This document shows, piece by piece, positions 5,949-31,504 of a stretch of 34,321 nt of DNA. Location: the NCBI GenBank assembly GCA_021790195.1, contig JAJYIF010000035.1:1-34321 (forward strand), read 5' to 3'. The notes beneath the pieces were generated by a model that saw only the letters and a program-made list of their open reading frames with translations, did no database searches and had not been told where the DNA came from. The position numbers and the translations under genes were made by a program. The stretch's first letter is position 1; each line of letters begins with the position of its first letter. The DNA is from Nitrospirota bacterium. Its GTDB lineage: Bacteria > Nitrospirota > Thermodesulfovibrionia > Thermodesulfovibrionales > UBA9159.

Positions 5949-6895
5949 TGGTTGCCGTAAGAGGGATTGAGAATCTTAGAGGGAGGTACCCGAACGTCGT
6001 CTTGACAATAGGCAACTTCGACGGCGTGCATATTGGGCACCAGAAGATTTTCAGTAATGTTGTCGAGAGGGCGAAGTCCCGGGGAGGCGTAGCCATGGCG
6101 ATCACTTTCGACCCGCATCCGATGAAGGTTGTCGCTCCGGAGAGGGGTGTGAGGGTGCTAACGCCCTTCGGTGAGAAGGCGCGCTTAATGGGGGCTTTCG
6201 GGATAGAGGTCGTCCTCTGCATAAGTTTCAGCCGTGAGTTTTCCGGCATGAAGCCGGACGATTTTATAAAAGACGTGATAGCAGGGCGCATCGGCGCAAA
6301 AGAGGTGATTGTCGGACACAACTACACCTTCGGGAAGGGAAAGAAAGGCACGACTGAGCTCTTAAGGAGGAGGGGCAGAAGGCTCGGTTTTTCACTTACC
6401 GTGGTCAGGAATGCGAGGCTTTTCGGCGATGTTGTGAGCAGCAGCCGGATCAGGAGCCTTGTCAGCAGGGGCAGGGTCTGCGAGGCATCGTGGCTTCTTG
6501 GGAGACCGTATATGATCGAGGGAGAAGTCGTGAAGGGCGCTGGCAGGGGGAAGAGCCTCCTCAATGTTCCGACTGCAAACATAAGGACCCCGAATGAACT
6601 CGTTCCGCGGGAAGGCGTTTACGCTGTGAAGGCGCTCATTAAGGGCAAATTGCTGGACGGTGTGGCAAACATGGGAAAGAACCCCACCTTCGGGGAGGGC
6701 GAGATGAGCTACGAGGTCCATCTCTTTGATTTTTCCGGGGATGTGCTCGGAGAGACGATGAGGGTATATTTCATAGATAGGATAAGAGACGAGAAGACCT
6801 TTCCCGACATTGCCGCGCTCCATGAGGGCATCCTCAGAGACATCGAACGGGCCGGAGAAATACTTAAGACAAAAAAGTACCCTAAAGTGATATAG
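5945..6895 (+). CDS. ribF: bifunctional riboflavin kinase / FAD synthetase
   Basis: RibF makes FMN from riboflavin and then FAD. The N-terminal nucleotidyltransferase domain shows TIGNFDGVHIGHQ, TFDPHP and VGHNYTFGKGKKG. The C-terminal flavokinase domain shows GRGKSLLNVPTANI and GVYAVKA. The 316-residue length is normal. Its start overlaps the coaE stop by 4 nt, so the two cofactor genes form an operon. Two ATG codons are in tandem at the start. The 3' end overlaps the convergent priA-like gene by 14 bp. Confidence 0.95.
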   Translation: MMVAVRGIENLRGRYPNVVLTIGNFDGVHIGHQKIFSNVVERAKSRGGVAMAITFDPHPMKVVAPERGVRVLTPFGEKARLMGAFGIEVVLCISFSREFSGMKPDDFIKDVIAGRIGAKEVIVGHNYTFGKGKKGTTELLRRRGRRLGFSLTVVRNARLFGDVVSSSRIRSLVSRGRVCEASWLLGRPYMIEGEVVKGAGRGKSLLNVPTANIRTPNELVPREGVYAVKALIKGKLLDGVANMGKNPTFGEGEMSYEVHLFDFSGDVLGETMRVYFIDRIRDEKTFPDIAALHEGILRDIERAGEILKTKKYPKVI

Positions 6896-8780
6896 GATCT
6901 ACGTCTATCACGGTCCGCATTCCTTTCTTGTATTTAAAGCGCTTTAGAAAGTCCTTCGCGCACGCATTGAGTTTTACTCTGACCGGCGATTTAAGCAGCA
7001 CCTTCCAGATATATATCCCTTTCCTTGTCGAGCTCGAAGGGCCGATTACCTCTATCTCTCTGTCAAAACAGGCCATTGCTTCCTCCGACGCTCTGCCGAT
7101 ATCCGTATTCGAAGACACGGTTATTCCTATCATTCGCGAAAAAGGCGGGTACGCGAGAGTCTTTCTGACCGAAAGTTCCTCTTTCAGGAAGTCTATAGAA
7201 TTGTACCGTCTGACATTTCTGTAAACGCTGTTTTCCGGCATTCTCGTCTGCACAAGGACCAGTCCGCCTGGACTTGTGCATTCGGCCAGTCCCAATATTT
7301 CCTGGAAGAGCGCCTCCGCTGATCTGAAATCCGGCAGATGAAGGCCTATGTCGGGATTCAGCAAAACGCAGAGATTGTACTCTCCTTTAGATCTGAATCT
7401 TCCCGTGACGGCCTTTGTGCCGACGACTATTCTTTCCGCGGAAGGACCCGGGAGGACCTTAAGGAGCCGATCATTGCTAAGCGCGTCTTTGTCGATGCGG
7501 AGCGGTTCCGTCCCAAGCAGTTTCTTCAGATCAGCAGCTACACGCTGGGTACCTGCACCGACCATCTCAAGATTTGCGCTGCCGCATTTCCTGCAAGAGT
7601 CCGGGGCGTCTGACGCGTGGCCACAATAATGACATTTGAGGGTTCTCGCGTCTTTGTGATAGATGAGAGGGATTCTGCATTCGGGGCAGGAGGGGACGTC
7701 GCCGCACTCGGGGCATTGAATCATAGAATACCCCTTCCTGTTGATCAGGAAGAGGACGCTCCCCCCTTTTTTTATATGTGAGGATGCGGTATCCAGGGCC
7801 TGTCGAGATATGTACGGCGTCGCCTTTCTTGCGGTCCTCATATTAATAACGTCGATCCTGGGACGCCTTATCTGCAGATCAGGACGAAGCAGTACGTATT
7901 TGCCCCTGAGTGTGTTATGGAAAGATTCCGCCGAAGGAGCGGTTGATGAGAGCAGAACAGGGGTTCTGTCCAGGTACCCGCGCATGACCGCGACGTCCCT
8001 TGCGTGATACCTCAAACCCTCTAGGTTCTTGTAGGACCTGTTTTGCTCCTGCAGGACCGCTATAAGGGAAAGGGACTTCAGGGGCGCAAATACAGCGGGT
8101 CTTGTGCCTAAGACAATATCCGCGGTTCCTGAAAGGATTCTGTCGAAGGCTGCCCTCTTTCTTCCCCGGGAAAGCTGTCCGTGCAGGACGGCCAGACGTT
8201 CTCCGGCGATGCCGTGAAGGACAGCCGCCACCTCTTCAACGACGGATATCTCGGGAGCGAGCAGTATGACGTTACTGATCTCCTTTATGATCTCATGTAT
8301 GCAGGATATCTCATGCCGGAGGGTGGGTGAATGGAGGAGGTAAGCCTTATATTGCCCTTTGAAGATGGATTCACTCACCGGCGACAGGATCGCTCTATCA
8401 ACGGGGCAGGGCTGCCATGCATAATTACTGCTGTCGACGAGGGTCGTCTGTTTTGCAGATCCGGGCTTTTCGAAAACTTCGGTCGGAAGCATGCTCTTGA
8501 GCACAAGACCTTCAGAGGAAATATAATAATCGGCCATCCAGGCGAGGAGCTTTAACATCGCTTTGCTGAAGAGCGGCCCCTCGCTGACGATATCGACAAT
8601 CTCTTTTGTCCTGTGGCCTGTATAGCCGGGGGTCTCGCCGAGGACAACGCCGTGTTGCAAGGTCCTTTTCACCTCTGCCCTGACCAGTGTGCCCGGGGTT
8701 ATTACGCCGGCATATCCCGAAGGTCTACTGTAAGTCAGCGGTCCGATGTTAAGTGGAAAGACCACGTTATAGAAATCCAT
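6882..8780 (-). CDS. priA: PriA-like primosomal protein N' with degenerate helicase motifs
   Basis: Overall layout is that of PriA: N-terminal DNA-binding region starting MDFYNVVFPL, helicase lobe 1, a cysteine-rich zinc insert with eight cysteines (C356, C359, C365, C368, C383, C386, C396, C399), lobe 2 and a C-terminal domain. Sequence blocks such as GTRPAVFAPLKSLSLI, RYHARDVAVMRGYL and LPDFRSAEALFQ leave little doubt on the family. The ATPase motifs are missing: the Walker A site reads SPTLRHE (about 151-157), the DEEH box reads LQEQ (243-246), SATPS reads STAPS, and the arginine-finger GRAGR reads LAECTS. It is therefore probably not an ATP-driven helicase and may load other primosome proteins or be structural. 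A GTG five codons upstream (8795) is an alternative start. Confidence 0.88.
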   Translation of the reverse strand: MDFYNVVFPLNIGPLTYSRPSGYAGVITPGTLVRAEVKRTLQHGVVLGETPGYTGHRTKEIVDIVSEGPLFSKAMLKLLAWMADYYISSEGLVLKSMLPTEVFEKPGSAKQTTLVDSSNYAWQPCPVDRAILSPVSESIFKGQYKAYLLHSPTLRHEISCIHEIIKEISNVILLAPEISVVEEVAAVLHGIAGERLAVLHGQLSRGRKRAAFDRILSGTADIVLGTRPAVFAPLKSLSLIAVLQEQNRSYKNLEGLRYHARDVAVMRGYLDRTPVLLSSTAPSAESFHNTLRGKYVLLRPDLQIRRPRIDVINMRTARKATPYISRQALDTASSHIKKGGSVLFLINRKGYSMIQCPECGDVPSCPECRIPLIYHKDARTLKCHYCGHASDAPDSCRKCGSANLEMVGAGTQRVAADLKKLLGTEPLRIDKDALSNDRLLKVLPGPSAERIVVGTKAVTGRFRSKGEYNLCVLLNPDIGLHLPDFRSAEALFQEILGLAECTSPGGLVLVQTRMPENSVYRNVRRYNSIDFLKEELSVRKTLAYPPFSRMIGITVSSNTDIGRASEEAMACFDREIEVIGPSSSTRKGIYIWKVLLKSPVRVKLNACAKDFLKRFKYKKGMRTVIDVDPISL

Positions 8781-8917
8781 AGGAGATTTTACCACGAACG
8801 GACATTCGGAAAACCGGCGAGGTCAAACTATCTCGAAGGGATTCGTCGGACTTGAGAGGCGGCGAGGACAAACCGAACCGGTAACCGTCGAACCGGCCCG
8901 GTCCCGTCAGGGAAGGG

Positions 8918-17992: not shown

Positions 17993-20086
17993 TCAGCGCG
18001 ATCTGGCGCAGCGGAAGCCCACGTTGTACCTTGAGTTTTGCGGATCGCCGCTAAAGCGCTTAACGGTCGTGAGCTGGGAGGGCCCGCTAAGAAAATCACC
18101 GCCCCTCATCACCTTTGCGGAGCCGGACGCAGGCCCCCTTGGATTTTCCCTCGGACTCTTTCTGTAGTAATTATTGTCGTACCAGTCCGATACCCACTGC
18201 ATAACGTCGCCGCTCATATCGAAGAGGCCGTCATCTCCCGGCCTTTTCTGCCCCACCGGGTGGACTTTCCCGCCCGAGTTGTGAGACATCCATGCATAGT
18301 CGCCGAGCTTTGCCTCGCTGCCCGCGCCAGGCCACTCCTCCTTCTTTCCGAGACCCCTCGCCGCGTATTCCCATTCAGCCTCCGTCGGGAGTCTCAGCCC
18401 GGCCCATTCGCAGTACGCCCTGGCGTCATCCCAGGACACAAGGACCACAGGATAGTTGTCGCCCGGGTTATATTGTTTGTTCCTCCAGGTCGTACGTTTG
18501 TCTTTCACCCAAACTCCCCTGAAGGCGAATTGTCCCCGCTCCGCGTCCGTCAGATATTTCTTTGCCTCGGCGAACTTCCTGAACTCCCCGACCGTCACAT
18601 CATATTTGCCTATATGGAAGTCATCTACGCACACCTCGTGAGGATCGTTGTCGGACACGGCGTCGTCAAATATATTCCCCATTCTAAAGCAGCCGCCTTT
18701 GATGAAAACGAGGAGATTCTTGGTCTTTTTTCCGTCGGCTATCTTCTTTTCCAGATCTGAAATCGCGCTGTCGATTCCGGTGAAACCCGGAGAGAGCGCT
18801 TTCGCCTCCTTATAAATATCGAGGGCATTATCGAGCTGTCCCTCGGACTCTTTGGCCTTGCCCTGAGCAACCAATTCGTCTGCCTTTTTCTCAATCCCTT
18901 CAATCTCGCGCACTCTTTCGCGGGCCGGGGAGTATCCGGGAGAGACCAACGTCGCTTTTCCGTAATAATCTTTGGCATCTCCGAAGTTCTTTGAGGAATA
19001 AGCATTATCCCCAAGTTTGACGAGGGCGTCCCTTATTTCGACGATCTTTCCCTTGGCCTGGGCGTTGTCGGGGTCTGAGGCCAGGACCTGCTTCAATGTG
19101 GAAAAGGCGTTGTCCCCCTCCGGAGAAACATATCGCCGCGCCGAAAACTGCTTTTCGGCCCTCGCGAGAAGAGAAGCTATCGCTTCGTTCTTCGGCCGTT
19201 CTGAGCTCTGTGAACTCTGGACCTGTGTCTTGCCGTGAATCAAAAAAAAGACAATTACGACAGCGGCGACCGCGACAGCTCCGAAAATAACTGCCATCGG
19301 CGGCTTTTTACCGGAAGACACTGTTACCTTGTCGTCCGTATGTTTAGACTCGCCCGGGGATTCAACAGTTTGCGACGGTGTCTTATCTATATGTCCACCC
19401 GGCTTAGGGTCCGAAGCAATGCCTGCGGAAAGATCTGCTGCTCCCGCGCCGGCGGAAATGCTTTCTGACAAGTTCTCGCTTTCCCTGGGTGCTTCGTCAG
19501 CCGCGACAGCTTCGGTTGGGGCAGTATAGTGAAGAGCAAGTTCGTCGTCGGACGTGAACAATTCAGCGGCCTTAGGGTGTGCGGAGTGGTCCAGCACCCT
19601 CGCGCCTTCAAGCAGCAAATACTCCGCGCTCAATCCCTGGGAGAGCTCCCACCCGAAGTCAGGGAAACTCGCCAGTCCGTCCAGGGAAAGGTCGTCCGCG
19701 CGGAACTGGAATTCCCCTTCTCCCCAGTAAAGAAGGCGGTGAAAGATGCCCTCGATCCTCTTCTTGGCTATCTTGTCGAGGTCTTCTCTGCCGACGGAAT
19801 TATGGTCGTAGAGTATGTCCGCGACCGAATTCCCCCGGACCTTTTCCTTGACCTTCAGGGCCGCCATAATCTCGGTCCTGCTCACGAGACCCTCTTCAAG
19901 AAGGTCGTCGGTCAGCTTTTTGTCGAGAACATCCGACTCGGCCCTGAAAACGAGGCCGTTCTTAAAGACGATGAGCGCGGTCCCGCTATTGCCGCGTACA
20001 ACGAATACTCCTGTCTTTCTGCCTATGCTGAGTATCTGGAATACGTCAGCGAGGGCAATGGTTTCAAGTCTGCCTACAAGGCTCAT
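17993..20086 (-). CDS. DUF4388 / TM / TPR / SUMF1-fold membrane protein
   Basis: This 697-residue multidomain protein has an N-terminal DUF4388 (PATAN-like) domain (about 1-165) starting [20 protein letters not shown], an acidic linker, one membrane helix (about 263-284), TPR-like repeats (about 295-450) and a C-terminal formylglycine-generating-enzyme-like domain (about 465-697). The FGE fold is clear from [24 protein letters not shown] and MRGGDF. The cysteine pair that active FGE carries near its C-terminus is absent (the RGGDF segment is followed by Ser/Pro/Thr). It is therefore likely a binding domain rather than an active enzyme. Topology suggests cytoplasmic DUF4388 and an exported C-terminal half. 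Confidence 0.82.
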
Positions 20087-22462: not shown

Positions 22463-23356
22463 ATGAATCGCGTTCTATCATCAGTAACCGCACCAAGACA
22501 GCCGCTCGATTGGCCGACGAAGGAAGAGCCTATTGTCGTGTTGCACGGCGATACAAGAGATATAATACGTAGATTGCCTGATAACTCGTTTCAATGCGTT
22601 GTGACCTCGCCGCCATATTGGGGGGTGAGGGATTATGGGGTTCACGGACAAATAGGCGCAGAAGCCGAATTAGATGAATATCTTGATACTCTGGTCGATA
22701 TTTTTCGAGAAGTCCGAAGGGTTTTAAAACCCGACGGAACATTCTGGCTAAACATCGGTAATACTTATACCTCCGGCGGTAGAAAGTGGCGTCAAGAAGA
22801 TGACAAAAATAAAGGCCGGGCAATGTCATATAGACCTCAGACACCACCCGGCTTGAAGAAGAAAGACCTTATCGGTGTAGCCTGGCTCCTGGCCCTTAAA
22901 TGTCAAAGCGATGGCTGGTATTTGAGAAATGATATTATTTGGTACAAACCGAATTGCCAGCCGGAGAGTGTAAAAGATCGCTTTACAGTCGCTCATGAGT
23001 ACCTTTTTCTTTTCAGTAAGTCAGAACATTATTTCTTCGATCAGGAGGCCATAAAAGAACGCACAACGGATGGGAATGGCCTTAAGAACAAGAGGACCGT
23101 CTGGTCGATTAATACAGAACCATGCCCTGACGCCCATTTCGCAGTGTTTCCCAAAGGGCTTGTACGGCCTTGCATACTGGCGGGAAGCAGACCCAATGAT
23201 TTTGTCCTCGATCCGTTTTATGGGGCCGGCACTGTGGGTATAATTTCTAAAGAGCTTACGAGACGATGTGTCGGTATTGAATTAAAGGATGAATATATTG
23301 AAATTGCCGACAAAAGAACATCAGCTGTGCAGACGCCGCTTATTCCGGCGGTATGA
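22463..23356 (+). CDS. type II DNA methyltransferase (beta class, probably N4-cytosine)
   Basis: The 297-residue enzyme shows catalytic motif IV TSPPYW (48-53) ahead of the SAM-binding motif I region DPFYGAGTVGI near the C-terminus. This order defines the beta class. The SPPY form is typical of N4-cytosine methylation, though N6-adenine enzymes also occur. It should protect host DNA from the neighbouring nuclease. Its 3' end overlaps the convergent nuclease gene by 17 bp, which ties the two genes together as a unit. Recognition sequence cannot be predicted. Confidence 0.88.
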   Translation: MNRVLSSVTAPRQPLDWPTKEEPIVVLHGDTRDIIRRLPDNSFQCVVTSPPYWGVRDYGVHGQIGAEAELDEYLDTLVDIFREVRRVLKPDGTFWLNIGNTYTSGGRKWRQEDDKNKGRAMSYRPQTPPGLKKKDLIGVAWLLALKCQSDGWYLRNDIIWYKPNCQPESVKDRFTVAHEYLFLFSKSEHYFFDQEAIKERTTDGNGLKNKRTVWSINTEPCPDAHFAVFPKGLVRPCILAGSRPNDFVLDPFYGAGTVGIISKELTRRCVGIELKDEYIEIADKRTSAVQTPLIPAV

Positions 23357-24107
23357 TAAATTCCCAAGTTGCGTGAACCGAGCATACGCTTTTGTTGAGG
23401 TTCTTAATCTGTAGCTTTCGTTCCGTACCCCCGTCAAAATAAAGGTCAAAGATTGTCTCTCCCGCCTTATTCTGAACATGGCAATATCCGGGCTTAGGAT
23501 ATTGTTTACTGTCCGCCATCATCTGTAATTCGCCGTCCTTCGCCTTTAAAAGAAGACTTTTAGGGATTTCAACAAGTTCATATTTCCATTTCGGCGTCTT
23601 TGCCAGGGTCCGCAAAATGAGAATTCTGTCATAAGCTTTCATGTGCTCCAGAAATTGTTTGCGAAGGCCGACGAGATCGTCAGGATTGTCGCCCCAAGTC
23701 CCCTTACCAAGCTCCATGAATTTGCTTATCCAAATAATATTTTCTTTGACGCCCTTATCAGCCTGCGTTTTCAGGGAGAGCTTAACACCGTCTGAGCTTG
23801 CGTCATGTCCGGGATTTCCTTTTGGTGCAAGAGATGCTGTATGCCCGCTCATTTTTAAAACATTCACCAGCACATACTCGAACTTGTCCTTACTAAAGGG
23901 CTCCGATGAAAAGCTGTGATGCACACGGATAGCGTCACCAAAATTCTGCAATGTTGTTTCATCAAAAAGGTCTGTCTCACTTAACCGAAAGTCATGCTCC
24001 GCAGAGAATACACGTACGACACGCTGTAGCCAATGCAATTGTCCCGCCGTCAGTTCCGGCATCGCCTGTACCAATAATGCGATCAATCGTTTCTTATCGT
24101 CTGTCAT
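23340..24107 (-). CDS. candidate type II restriction endonuclease
   Basis: This 255-residue protein lies tail-to-tail with a DNA methyltransferase. It contains a candidate PD-(D/E)XK-like core: PGHDASSDGVKLSLKTQ, where the Asp and the SLKTQ lysine would bind metal, though the usual acidic residue before the Lys is Ser. I do not recognise a named nuclease family from sequence alone. Context is the main support. Like the other island genes it is on the minus strand, starting 50 nt after an attC-like site. Confidence 0.65.
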   Translation of the reverse strand: MTDDKKRLIALLVQAMPELTAGQLHWLQRVVRVFSAEHDFRLSETDLFDETTLQNFGDAIRVHHSFSSEPFSKDKFEYVLVNVLKMSGHTASLAPKGNPGHDASSDGVKLSLKTQADKGVKENIIWISKFMELGKGTWGDNPDDLVGLRKQFLEHMKAYDRILILRTLAKTPKWKYELVEIPKSLLLKAKDGELQMMADSKQYPKPGYCHVQNKAGETIFDLYFDGGTERKLQIKNLNKSVCSVHATWEFIIPPE

Positions 24108-24316: not shown

Positions 24317-24960
24317 GTACGCCCGGCATGGGCGTGAGCTAATGGGGTGAAAGTCCCCTGTACGAGAACCGATGGTGTTCATAGTAATGGATACTAACAA
24401 AAGTACGAGCCGAAGGCAAGGGCGTCTCCGCGAGGAGGGGTCTGAAGGAAGCCGGAGTGCAAACGTGCGAGGCGACGGACAGAAACCGCATACAAGGCTC
24501 AGCTCTTGGGCGAGCAGGCACAACACGAGCGAAGCCCATAGGTTCGGGAGCAGGGTAAATGCGGCGTTTGTGCACGGAAGGTTCACGTTCTTATCCGGGG
24601 AGATCTGCATGTCACGCGGCAGGAGTATCATGAGAGAAGGCCGGAGGAGGTTCACCCGGTTGACCAGGAACCCGGCGCATCCGTCCGCTGTGGGCGGGTG
24701 CGAGTCCCGACCACCCCGACCCTTTGGCAGGCTCAGGGCCACCCCTCCTTGCCAAGGCGGGGAGTTATGGGAAACACAAAGCAGACAGCAACTCATGAGC
24801 CTTTCTGTAGCGCCCTGTATGGAGACATACGGGGTAAGTATGCAGAAGTCAGCAGAGGGCATAGTACTTCCGGTAAAACGGAAGGAAGGCCCGAACGTGG
24901 AAATGAGGATGACACTATCATGAGCTCTCATACGGTGAAGAATCCGAACGGAGGAGCCGG

Positions 24961-26256
24961 GTGAGGCGCGACATGGAAGATTGTCCCCTTGATCCTGTCA
25001 CAGTGGAGGATGTCGTCAAAAGCGACAACATTCTCAGCGCATGGAAGCAAGTCAAGGCAAACAGAGGGGCTCCTGGTATCGATGGTATCACCATTGAGGA
25101 GTTTCCCGCGTACGCCCATGAAAGCTGGAAAGGGATTAAGACATCTTTGCTGGAGGGGACTTATTGTCCCTGTCCAGTCAAGCGTGCCGAAATCCCCAAA
25201 GACAAAGGAGGTGTCCGCCCCTTGGGCATCCCCGTTGTTATGGACCGCGTGATTCAACAGGCGGTCAGTCAGGTTCTCACTCCTGTCTTTGAGCCTCAAT
25301 TCTCCGAATCCAGCTTCGGGTTCAGGCCGAATCGCTCGGCCCACATGGCAGTCAAGAAGGTGCTCAGACTAATTCAGAAAGGATATGCCTATGCCGTGGA
25401 CATCGACCTTGAGAAGTTCTTCGATACGGTCAACCATGACGCCCTGATGCATCGGGTCTCCCGACGCCTCAAGGATAAAGGCATACCTCGTCTGATAGGC
25501 AAGTATCTTCGGGCCGGTGTGGTCGTAAAGGGCAGCCTGAAAGAAACCTCCGGGGGAGTGCCGCAGGGCGGGCCGTTATCGCCGCTGCTGAGCAATATCC
25601 TTTTGGATGATCTCGATAAGGAGCTGGAGAAAAGGGGGCATCAGTTCGCAAGGTATGCCGATGACCTTACAAGACTGGTCAAATCCAAAAGGGCCGCTTA
25701 TCGCGTCATGGAAAGTATCAGCCGGTTCCTTGAGGAAGTCCTCAAGGTGAAGGTTAACAGAGACAAGAGCCGGGTGGTAAGGGCCGAGGAGAGCACTTTC
25801 CTTGGTTTTACCTTTGCCAAGAAACGACTCACAATCTCTGAGAAATCCCTTGCACGCTTTAAGACCCAACTACGTCTTCTTACAGGCCGCAGCTGGGGTG
25901 TCTCTATGGATTATCGGTATTATAAAATCCGCCTCTATGCTCAGGGGTGGATCAACTACTTCGGCGTCGCCTTGAAGTACAACGACGCCGTTGAAATGGA
26001 TCACTGGCTACGTCGTCGTATTCGCATGTGCTATTTGAAACAGTGGAACAGGGCGAGAAGACGTATAGGCGAACTGATCAAACTCGGTGCGCCAAGGTAT
26101 CATGCCATTCTCACGGGGTTGAGCAGGAAGGGCTATTGGCATCTTGCTAAAACTCTATCGACGAATTGCGGGTTATCTCAGGCGTTCCTTCAAAAGCGGG
26201 GACTTGCCTCTATTCGCACATTGTGGATCAAGATTCACTACCCGGCTAAGACATAA
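24961..26256 (+). CDS. ltrA: group II intron reverse transcriptase/maturase
   Basis: The 431-residue protein has RT blocks RPLGIPVVMDRVIQQA, FGFRPNRSAH, YAVDIDLEKFFDTVNHD, GVPQGGPLSPLLSN, the active site YADD (232-235) and VNRDKS...FLGFTF. A maturase (X) domain follows with GWINYFG and WLRRRIRMCYLKQW. No HNH endonuclease domain is seen at the C-terminus, as expected for class C introns, which use replication-fork or hairpin DNA. It reads as intact. Start GTG 24961 or ATG 24973. The last 45 codons are repeated in the remnant at 30355-30594. Confidence 0.93.
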   Translation: MRRDMEDCPLDPVTVEDVVKSDNILSAWKQVKANRGAPGIDGITIEEFPAYAHESWKGIKTSLLEGTYCPCPVKRAEIPKDKGGVRPLGIPVVMDRVIQQAVSQVLTPVFEPQFSESSFGFRPNRSAHMAVKKVLRLIQKGYAYAVDIDLEKFFDTVNHDALMHRVSRRLKDKGIPRLIGKYLRAGVVVKGSLKETSGGVPQGGPLSPLLSNILLDDLDKELEKRGHQFARYADDLTRLVKSKRAAYRVMESISRFLEEVLKVKVNRDKSRVVRAEESTFLGFTFAKKRLTISEKSLARFKTQLRLLTGRSWGVSMDYRYYKIRLYAQGWINYFGVALKYNDAVEMDHWLRRRIRMCYLKQWNRARRRIGELIKLGAPRYHAILTGLSRKGYWHLAKTLSTNCGLSQAFLQKRGLASIRTLWIKIHYPAKT

Positions 26257-30354: not shown

Positions 30355-30594
30355 ACAGGGTTAAGCAGGAAGGGCTATTGGCATCTTGCTAAAACTCTAT
30401 CGACGAATTGCGGGATATCTCAGGCGTTCCTTCAAAAGCAGGGACTTGCCTCTATTCGCACATTGTGGATCAAGATTCATTACCCGGCCAAGACATAATC
30501 AGGTCTTTGCCGGTGCTTTCCGCGAACCGCCCGTTGCGGAGCCGCACGATGGGTGGTGTGGGGAGGGACGGTTAGCTACCGTCCCTTACCCGAT
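30355..30594 (+). mobile_element. 3' remnant of a second copy of the group II intron
   Basis: About 240 nt aligned with 26113-26355. It encodes the last about 45 codons of the RT (a few substitutions), then domains V/VI with a 4-nt deletion in domain VI, and ends exactly at the same CGAT|T border. Domains I-IV and most of the RT are missing. At this end it supplies the stop codon of the HNH gene. Confidence 0.9.
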
Positions 30595-31504
30595 TAGGTC
30601 TTTCTTCTTTCTGCATTGAAAGATTGCTCTTCCCGCTGTTACAGCGGTTACATAGCGTTTGCAAATTCCCCATGATGGTTTCACCACCTGTGCTCCAAGG
30701 AATAATATGGTCAACTTCTAAGCTGATGTTTTTGTCAACATTTTGCATAGCACCGCACAAGCAACACCTGAAGTTATCGCGACGCATGATTAAAAATCTT
30801 AACCGCCAGGAAACAATTCTTGATGTTTTCCGTTTTGTCTGTGCTACTTTTTTAGTCGTTGAGCTACCTGAAGCAATTAACGGCGGCGGCTGGTTATGGA
30901 TAATAGGTTCGGAAGTCCATCTGGCATCTATGTTTACAAATGCTATAAAAGATTCCAGTGCCTTTCTCCAAGTTCCAAATTTCTGTTCATATGTTTTAGC
31001 AGAGTATTTTGAAAGAGGCTTTTGCATGTCTGAATAGCGCGGTTGGCGGCCAAGCGTCCGCCAAACATATTCGAGATTTTCAAAATAATTTTCTCTGGGA
31101 ACGCGATGGGGTGTGCTTGGCTTTAGGCCGTTTTGTTCCAATGTCAGCCGCCAAGAGCCAAAATGACCAATTAGGGTGCTAGCGGCATATTGACCATGTT
31201 TTGAGTATTCTTTGAATGTTACGTTGTCTTTTCCCAGTTCTTGTGAAACGCGTTTTAAATCAGCAATTAAATTTTCGACCGGAATATTTAACTCGCTACG
31301 TGTCTTTTCCAATCCCGCCCTTTTAAGTGCAGTAAACCAAGAACCAAATCGCTTACGGAGACTTGAGGAATGATATGCTCCGTATCTATCATATTCTTCT
31401 ATCGTGACTGATTTCCTCTGGTGATGCCTTGCAATCTTTCTCAGATCTTCGAGAAGTTTCTCATCTGAAACATTGCGATGATATGGCTCAAGTTCAAATT
31501 TCAT
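30572..31504 (-). CDS. HNH endonuclease with N-terminal repeats
   Basis: The 310-residue product has three N-terminal repeats of about 60 residues, each ending FGSW/FGTW plus LxxxG (FGSWFTALKRAGL, FGSWRLTLEQNGL, FGTWRKAL). These resemble the repeats that accompany some HNH nucleases. The C-terminal HNH domain shows CCLCGA, EVDHIIPWSTGG, NLQTLCNRCNSGKS. It probably cuts DNA; specificity unknown. The last residues (after EERP) and the TAA stop are encoded inside the antisense of the intron remnant, so its original C-terminus is lost. The HNH core itself is intact. Confidence 0.85.
   Translation of the reverse strand: MKFELEPYHRNVSDEKLLEDLRKIARHHQRKSVTIEEYDRYGAYHSSSLRKRFGSWFTALKRAGLEKTRSELNIPVENLIADLKRVSQELGKDNVTFKEYSKHGQYAASTLIGHFGSWRLTLEQNGLKPSTPHRVPRENYFENLEYVWRTLGRQPRYSDMQKPLSKYSAKTYEQKFGTWRKALESFIAFVNIDARWTSEPIIHNQPPPLIASGSSTTKKVAQTKRKTSRIVSWRLRFLIMRRDNFRCCLCGAMQNVDKNISLEVDHIIPWSTGGETIMGNLQTLCNRCNSGKSNLSMQKEERPNRVRDGS

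Follow-up and report, generated by a model that had tools for sequence, protein, structure and literature searches.

A probable PriA pseudohelicase in the Thermodesulfovibrionales and a second loss of PriA motor motifs within the Nitrospirota

We find that a PriA gene in a Nitrospirota bacterium of the order Thermodesulfovibrionales encodes a full-length protein that has lost its motor motifs, and that the loss is order-wide. The gene lies in a 34,321-nucleotide stretch of DNA, hereafter the window, from contig JAJYIF010000035.1. We consider it highly probable that this sole, orthologous PriA of the cell has been a pseudohelicase since the ancestor of the order, and that it works as an ATP-independent fork-binding platform for the reloading of DnaB. 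PriA pseudohelicases are already known as a kind; among open-licence papers, we found none on such a protein in the Nitrospirota. New here are the lineages, two independent losses in a single phylum that also holds canonical sisters, the fact that every motif has eroded, and a candidate intermediate.

A full-length PriA with eroded motor motifs

The gene occupies positions 6882..8795 on the minus strand, with its stop at 6882 and two possible starts, a GTG at 8795 (637 aa) and an ATG at 8780 (632 aa). The ATG is the likelier start, as relatives begin at the corresponding position. By its domains, profile score, and fold, the reading frame is a full-length PriA. The protein scores 313.1 bits against the curated NCBIfam equivalog model TIGR00595 (cut-off 230.35), and its best NCBIfam scores are 362 bits for ordinary PriA models and 157 bits for the PRK14873 models. 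The 3′ DNA-binding domain (3′BD; PF17764; 8484..8744, minus strand; 53.4 bits against a cut-off of 22.7, E 2.4e-14) and the PriA C-terminal domain (CTD; PF18074; 6894..7145, minus strand; E 1.3e-7) are kept, as are all eight cysteines of the cysteine-rich zinc region (CRR; PF18319 plus other cysteines; 7584..7715, minus strand). There is no Pfam match for the helicase domain. The original prediction, made from the DNA letters, had described the eight cysteines and the GTRPAVFAPLK and LPDFRSAE blocks as retained, and they are.

The fold predicted by AF2 with 49 aligned relatives (mean pLDDT 88.5, pTM 0.89) and the order of its domains are those of PriA. The top five PDB matches are all PriA (Z 29.6-35.6), the next being Mfd (Z 18.4), and the best of them is E. 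coli PriA without the winged helix (rmsd 4.5 over 566 residues at Z 35.6). The winged-helix domain, which lies between the 3′BD and the helicase in PriAs that have it, is absent from the window protein. The spacer at this place measures 67-75 aa in family f1 and at least 128 aa in families with a winged helix, and about 66 aa in canonical family f16. We considered whether this absence accompanies the loss of the motor and rejected the idea: canonical sister families f15, f16, and f19-f21 (L071-L076, L078-L100, L148, L150, L152; spacers of about 65-72 aa) lack the domain as well. Since these canonical families share the absence, loss of the winged helix is older than loss of the motor and is not diagnostic.

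The motor itself has left only relics, all on the minus strand. These are LLHSPTLRHEI at motif I (Walker A; 8307..8339), LQEQ at motif II (8043..8054), SSTAPS for GSATPS at motif III (7932..7949), GTKAVTGRFRS at motif V (7389..7421), and GLAECTS at motif VI, the arginine finger (7272..7292). All four replacements named by the original prediction were thus present (SPTLRHE for GVTGSGKT, LQEQ for DEEH, STAPS for SATPS, and LAECTS for AGRAGR), and motif V is altered as well (GTKAVTGRFR for GTQMVAKGHD). With motifs I (GKT), II (DEEH), III, V, and VI (GRAGR) missing, the protein lacks the marks of an active SF2 helicase; it is most likely a PriA pseudohelicase of the D. radiodurans type, in that the catalytic motifs are lost from an intact PriA under selection.

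The original prediction of a changed Walker A motif holds, with the refinement that the change goes beyond substitution. In many families, the motif I region reads HAPSxxYE, and its conserved Glu, at offset 9, aligns best with the Glu that follows GKT at offset 11. The loop has therefore been shortened by some two residues, and the P-loop itself is gone. In the AF2 model, strand and helix are joined at this site by a turn of three residues. An automatic alignment had suggested a Walker A K-to-E substitution (E in 53 of 64 sequences); we regard this as an effect of the alignment and prefer the shortened loop.

The genes around priA are ordinary by Pfam, with coaE and ribF to one side and genes for an HD-domain protein and a HEAT-repeat protein to the other. 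Elsewhere in the window, a minus-strand gene (17993-20086) fuses DUF4388 to a formylglycine-generating-enzyme-like domain, and genes for a SmaI-type type II restriction enzyme and an N4/N6 DNA methylase are convergent (22463-24107). A group II intron (24424-26256, plus strand) comprises Rfam domains D1-D4 followed by a reverse transcriptase/maturase open reading frame. A further minus-strand gene (30572-31504) encodes an HNH nuclease domain together with three HNH-associated repeats; it lies in a stretch of lower GC (26-32 kb) that also codes for proteins without a Pfam match.

Loss of the motor across the order and again within the phylum

A PriA match was found in 60 of 61 genomes of the order, the window genome counted. 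Of the 65 PriAs that we read from 13 families of Thermodesulfovibrionales, not one has GKT at Walker A, DEEH at motif II, or GRAGR at motif VI, apart from a stray K in L058 and some partial matches to motif II. Of the DEEH residues, the third, a Glu, is retained in every member of the order, and the zinc cysteines number eight of eight in 65 of 65. A class-wide draw gave exactly one PriA in each of the 94 genomes of the order with a match, with profile scores of at most 378 bits and matches that begin after position 6; genomes of the same class outside the order mostly score 500-640 bits, with matches from position 1. As read, the PriAs of these other orders carry GVTGSGKT, DEEH or DEEQ, GSATPS, and GRAGRG, family f14 excepted. 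The nearest matches from other phyla, which sample only the closest neighbours and are not a survey, were canonical at motif I in every case listed. To quantify the loss, we took the 109 alignment columns with at least 95% invariance among canonical relatives. In the order, the 17 of these that belong to the ATP site are kept in 6% of cases and the other 92 in 71% (Mann-Whitney p = 5e-8), so the loss of the motifs is not random. Some canonical DNA-contact positions are also altered. Loss of the motor thus characterises the whole order and is not explained by error or by a peculiarity of one genome, and most likely the orthologous PriA became a pseudohelicase in the order's ancestor. The original prediction that this loss is independent of that in other lineages is supported by the canonical PriAs in sister orders of the class. 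The order-wide extent of the loss, its recurrence in the phylum, and the biochemical precedent of D. radiodurans go beyond that prediction.

A second group of degenerate PriAs appeared in a draw across the phylum, where families f29, f32, and f37 gave low scores and late-starting profile matches. The 17 PriAs that we read from them (L128-L142, L161, L162) have lost motifs I, III, VI, and most of II, their zinc cysteines are invariant, and the ATP-site columns are kept at 14.5% against 75% for the other 92. Two f29 genomes hold a perfect copy of the sequence of Ntspa662, a 16S probe for Nitrospira, and therefore f29 very probably includes Nitrospira. A PriA tree built without the motif columns places the order in one clade and f29, f32, and f37 in another (92/79), with canonical families between. 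Because an AU test rejects a tree joining the two motor-less clades (p-AU 0.002, lnL difference 67), because canonical families intervene, and because the replacement residues differ (HAPSxxYE and SSxCPSxES in the order, HAPxxxR and GSSHPSLE in f29, f32, and f37), we conclude that the motor was lost at least twice, independently, within one phylum. Long branches mark both clades, and their placement could be wrong; a single loss common to them, by ancestry or gene transfer, is very unlikely given the same three lines of evidence. Finally, family f14 (L151, L153, L256), from the window's class and another order, is a possible intermediate in the loss of the motor. All three of its genomes lack the second motif VI arginine, and motifs I and II are mostly intact. 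Motif I is intact in G061 and altered in G064; the alteration may be a sequence error, since the G064 reading frame is also split. In L153, a stop in the linker interrupts the reading frame.

Despite the loss, the protein is maintained by selection. In within-genus pairs, dN/dS is 0.11-0.38 in the order versus 0.07-0.18 in canonical PriA, values which show that purifying selection acts on the motor-less PriA and which agree with the original prediction of an intact frame selected for a non-helicase function. In most pairs from the order, the relic motif columns evolve at roughly the rate of the remaining protein; in canonical PriA, the same columns are clearly slower than the remainder, in most pairs by a factor of about two to three. 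This is the pattern expected if catalytic constraint was lost and the protein retained. Although metagenome assemblies account for many of the relatives, the sequence errors that the original prediction had allowed for are excluded because 65 genomes from 13 families share the loss, and with dN/dS well under 1 and eight invariant cysteines, we give next to no credence to error or to a decaying pseudogene.

A diverged paralogue, with a canonical PriA elsewhere in the genome, is scarcely more credible. The window genome is a 54-contig assembly of 96.3% completeness, which leaves about 4% missing. However, searches of its 3.3 Mb with the window protein and with TIGR00595 at E<=10 returned no second PriA, three of the other helicase matches being UvrB, RecG, and Mfd; a second complete priA, on which the original prediction would have been revised, was not found there. 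Moreover, every genome of the order with a match has exactly one PriA, and the order forms one group in the gene tree, consistent with vertical descent.

Proposed replication restart without a PriA motor

The window genome encodes both DnaB and DciA; DciA was present in 20 of 20 genomes and DnaB in 19 of 20. Of the partners raised by the original prediction, DnaB was thus found, and dnaC and dnaT were not: the genome search gave no candidate for DnaT, and none for DnaC beyond an IstB/DnaC-like match. This one strong match is an IS21-type IstB whose gene adjoins an IS21-type transposase gene, and we rejected it. RecG and Mfd are present in the genome. We also rejected RecQ as a compensating helicase, which occurs in 3 of 13 motor-less versus 6 of 9 other genomes, counts that ignore kinship.

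In E. coli, the fork is gripped by the 3′BD, the CRR, the helicase lobes, and the CTD of PriA, and the ATPase-dead mutant K230A has been used for DnaB loading in vitro (PMC10175261). The PriA of D. radiodurans has no ATPase or unwinding activity and binds single-stranded DNA, forks, and DnaB (PMC4504706). Given these precedents, the presence of DnaB and DciA, and the lack of a DnaT, we favor a platform that recognises forks and supports loading without ATP. The motor-less PriA very probably still marks stalled forks and unwinds no DNA. It would recognise abandoned forks through its 3′BD, CRR, and CTD, hold the single-stranded DNA of the lagging strand, and recruit DnaB, directly or via DciA, without ATP. 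Duplex on the lagging arm could be cleared by another helicase, such as RecG or Mfd, or clearing may be unnecessary.

An improbable alternative is that PriA has left restart for another role, for example binding DNA in a structural or regulatory capacity, and that forks are restarted by a PriA-free route. The long branches in the tree, indicating rapid divergence, and the changed DNA-contact positions would suit such a history, but all DNA-recognition domains are kept, the fold and domain order equal those of PriA, the gene is near-universal in single copy, and no replacement is seen. In a more tentative reading, unlikely but less so than any of the alternatives above, the ATP pocket may have been rebuilt as a conserved surface (HAPSxxYE, EHSxSYK, and SSxCPSxES in many families), for example a docking site or conformational lock that fixes fork-bound PriA or binds DciA-DnaB, and the motor might be repeatedly dispensable wherever DciA loads DnaB.

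To our knowledge, the PriA ATPase is conserved almost everywhere. E. coli with an ATPase-dead PriA nevertheless lives, which raises the question of the motor's purpose. The canonical close relatives make its dispensability testable and, with the half-way family, provide natural before-and-after pairs for asking what the motor is for. In addition, annotation pipelines label probably dead enzymes as "replication restart helicase PriA" across the Thermodesulfovibrionales and in a family to which Nitrospira, a major oxidiser of nitrite, very probably belongs.

Comparison with known PriA proteins

Actinobacterial PriA is said to lack helicase motifs, for which we found no paper in the literature; the PRK14873 models of actinobacterial PriA fit the window protein worse than ordinary PriA models do (157 vs 362 bits). 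The nearest precedent we compared is the PriA of D. radiodurans (PMC4504706), from another phylum. Its motifs I and II are broken and its DNA binding is kept, as would be expected of the window protein from its domains, and its genome has no clear priB or dnaT, as no DnaT was found in the window genome. The DciA family was found in our Deinobacterium and Thermus controls. The two proteins differ at Walker A, where D. radiodurans PriA has an arginine in place of the lysine and the window protein has a shortened P-loop, and in the extent of the loss, which in the window protein takes in motifs I, II, III, V, and VI; loss of ATPase activity was measured there and is predicted from sequence here. 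With the canonical PriA of E. coli and of sister families f15-f21, the window protein shares domain order, fold, zinc region, C-terminal domain, and single copy. It differs from them in having no motifs for ATP binding or hydrolysis and no winged helix, the latter already lost in f15, f16, and f19-f21.
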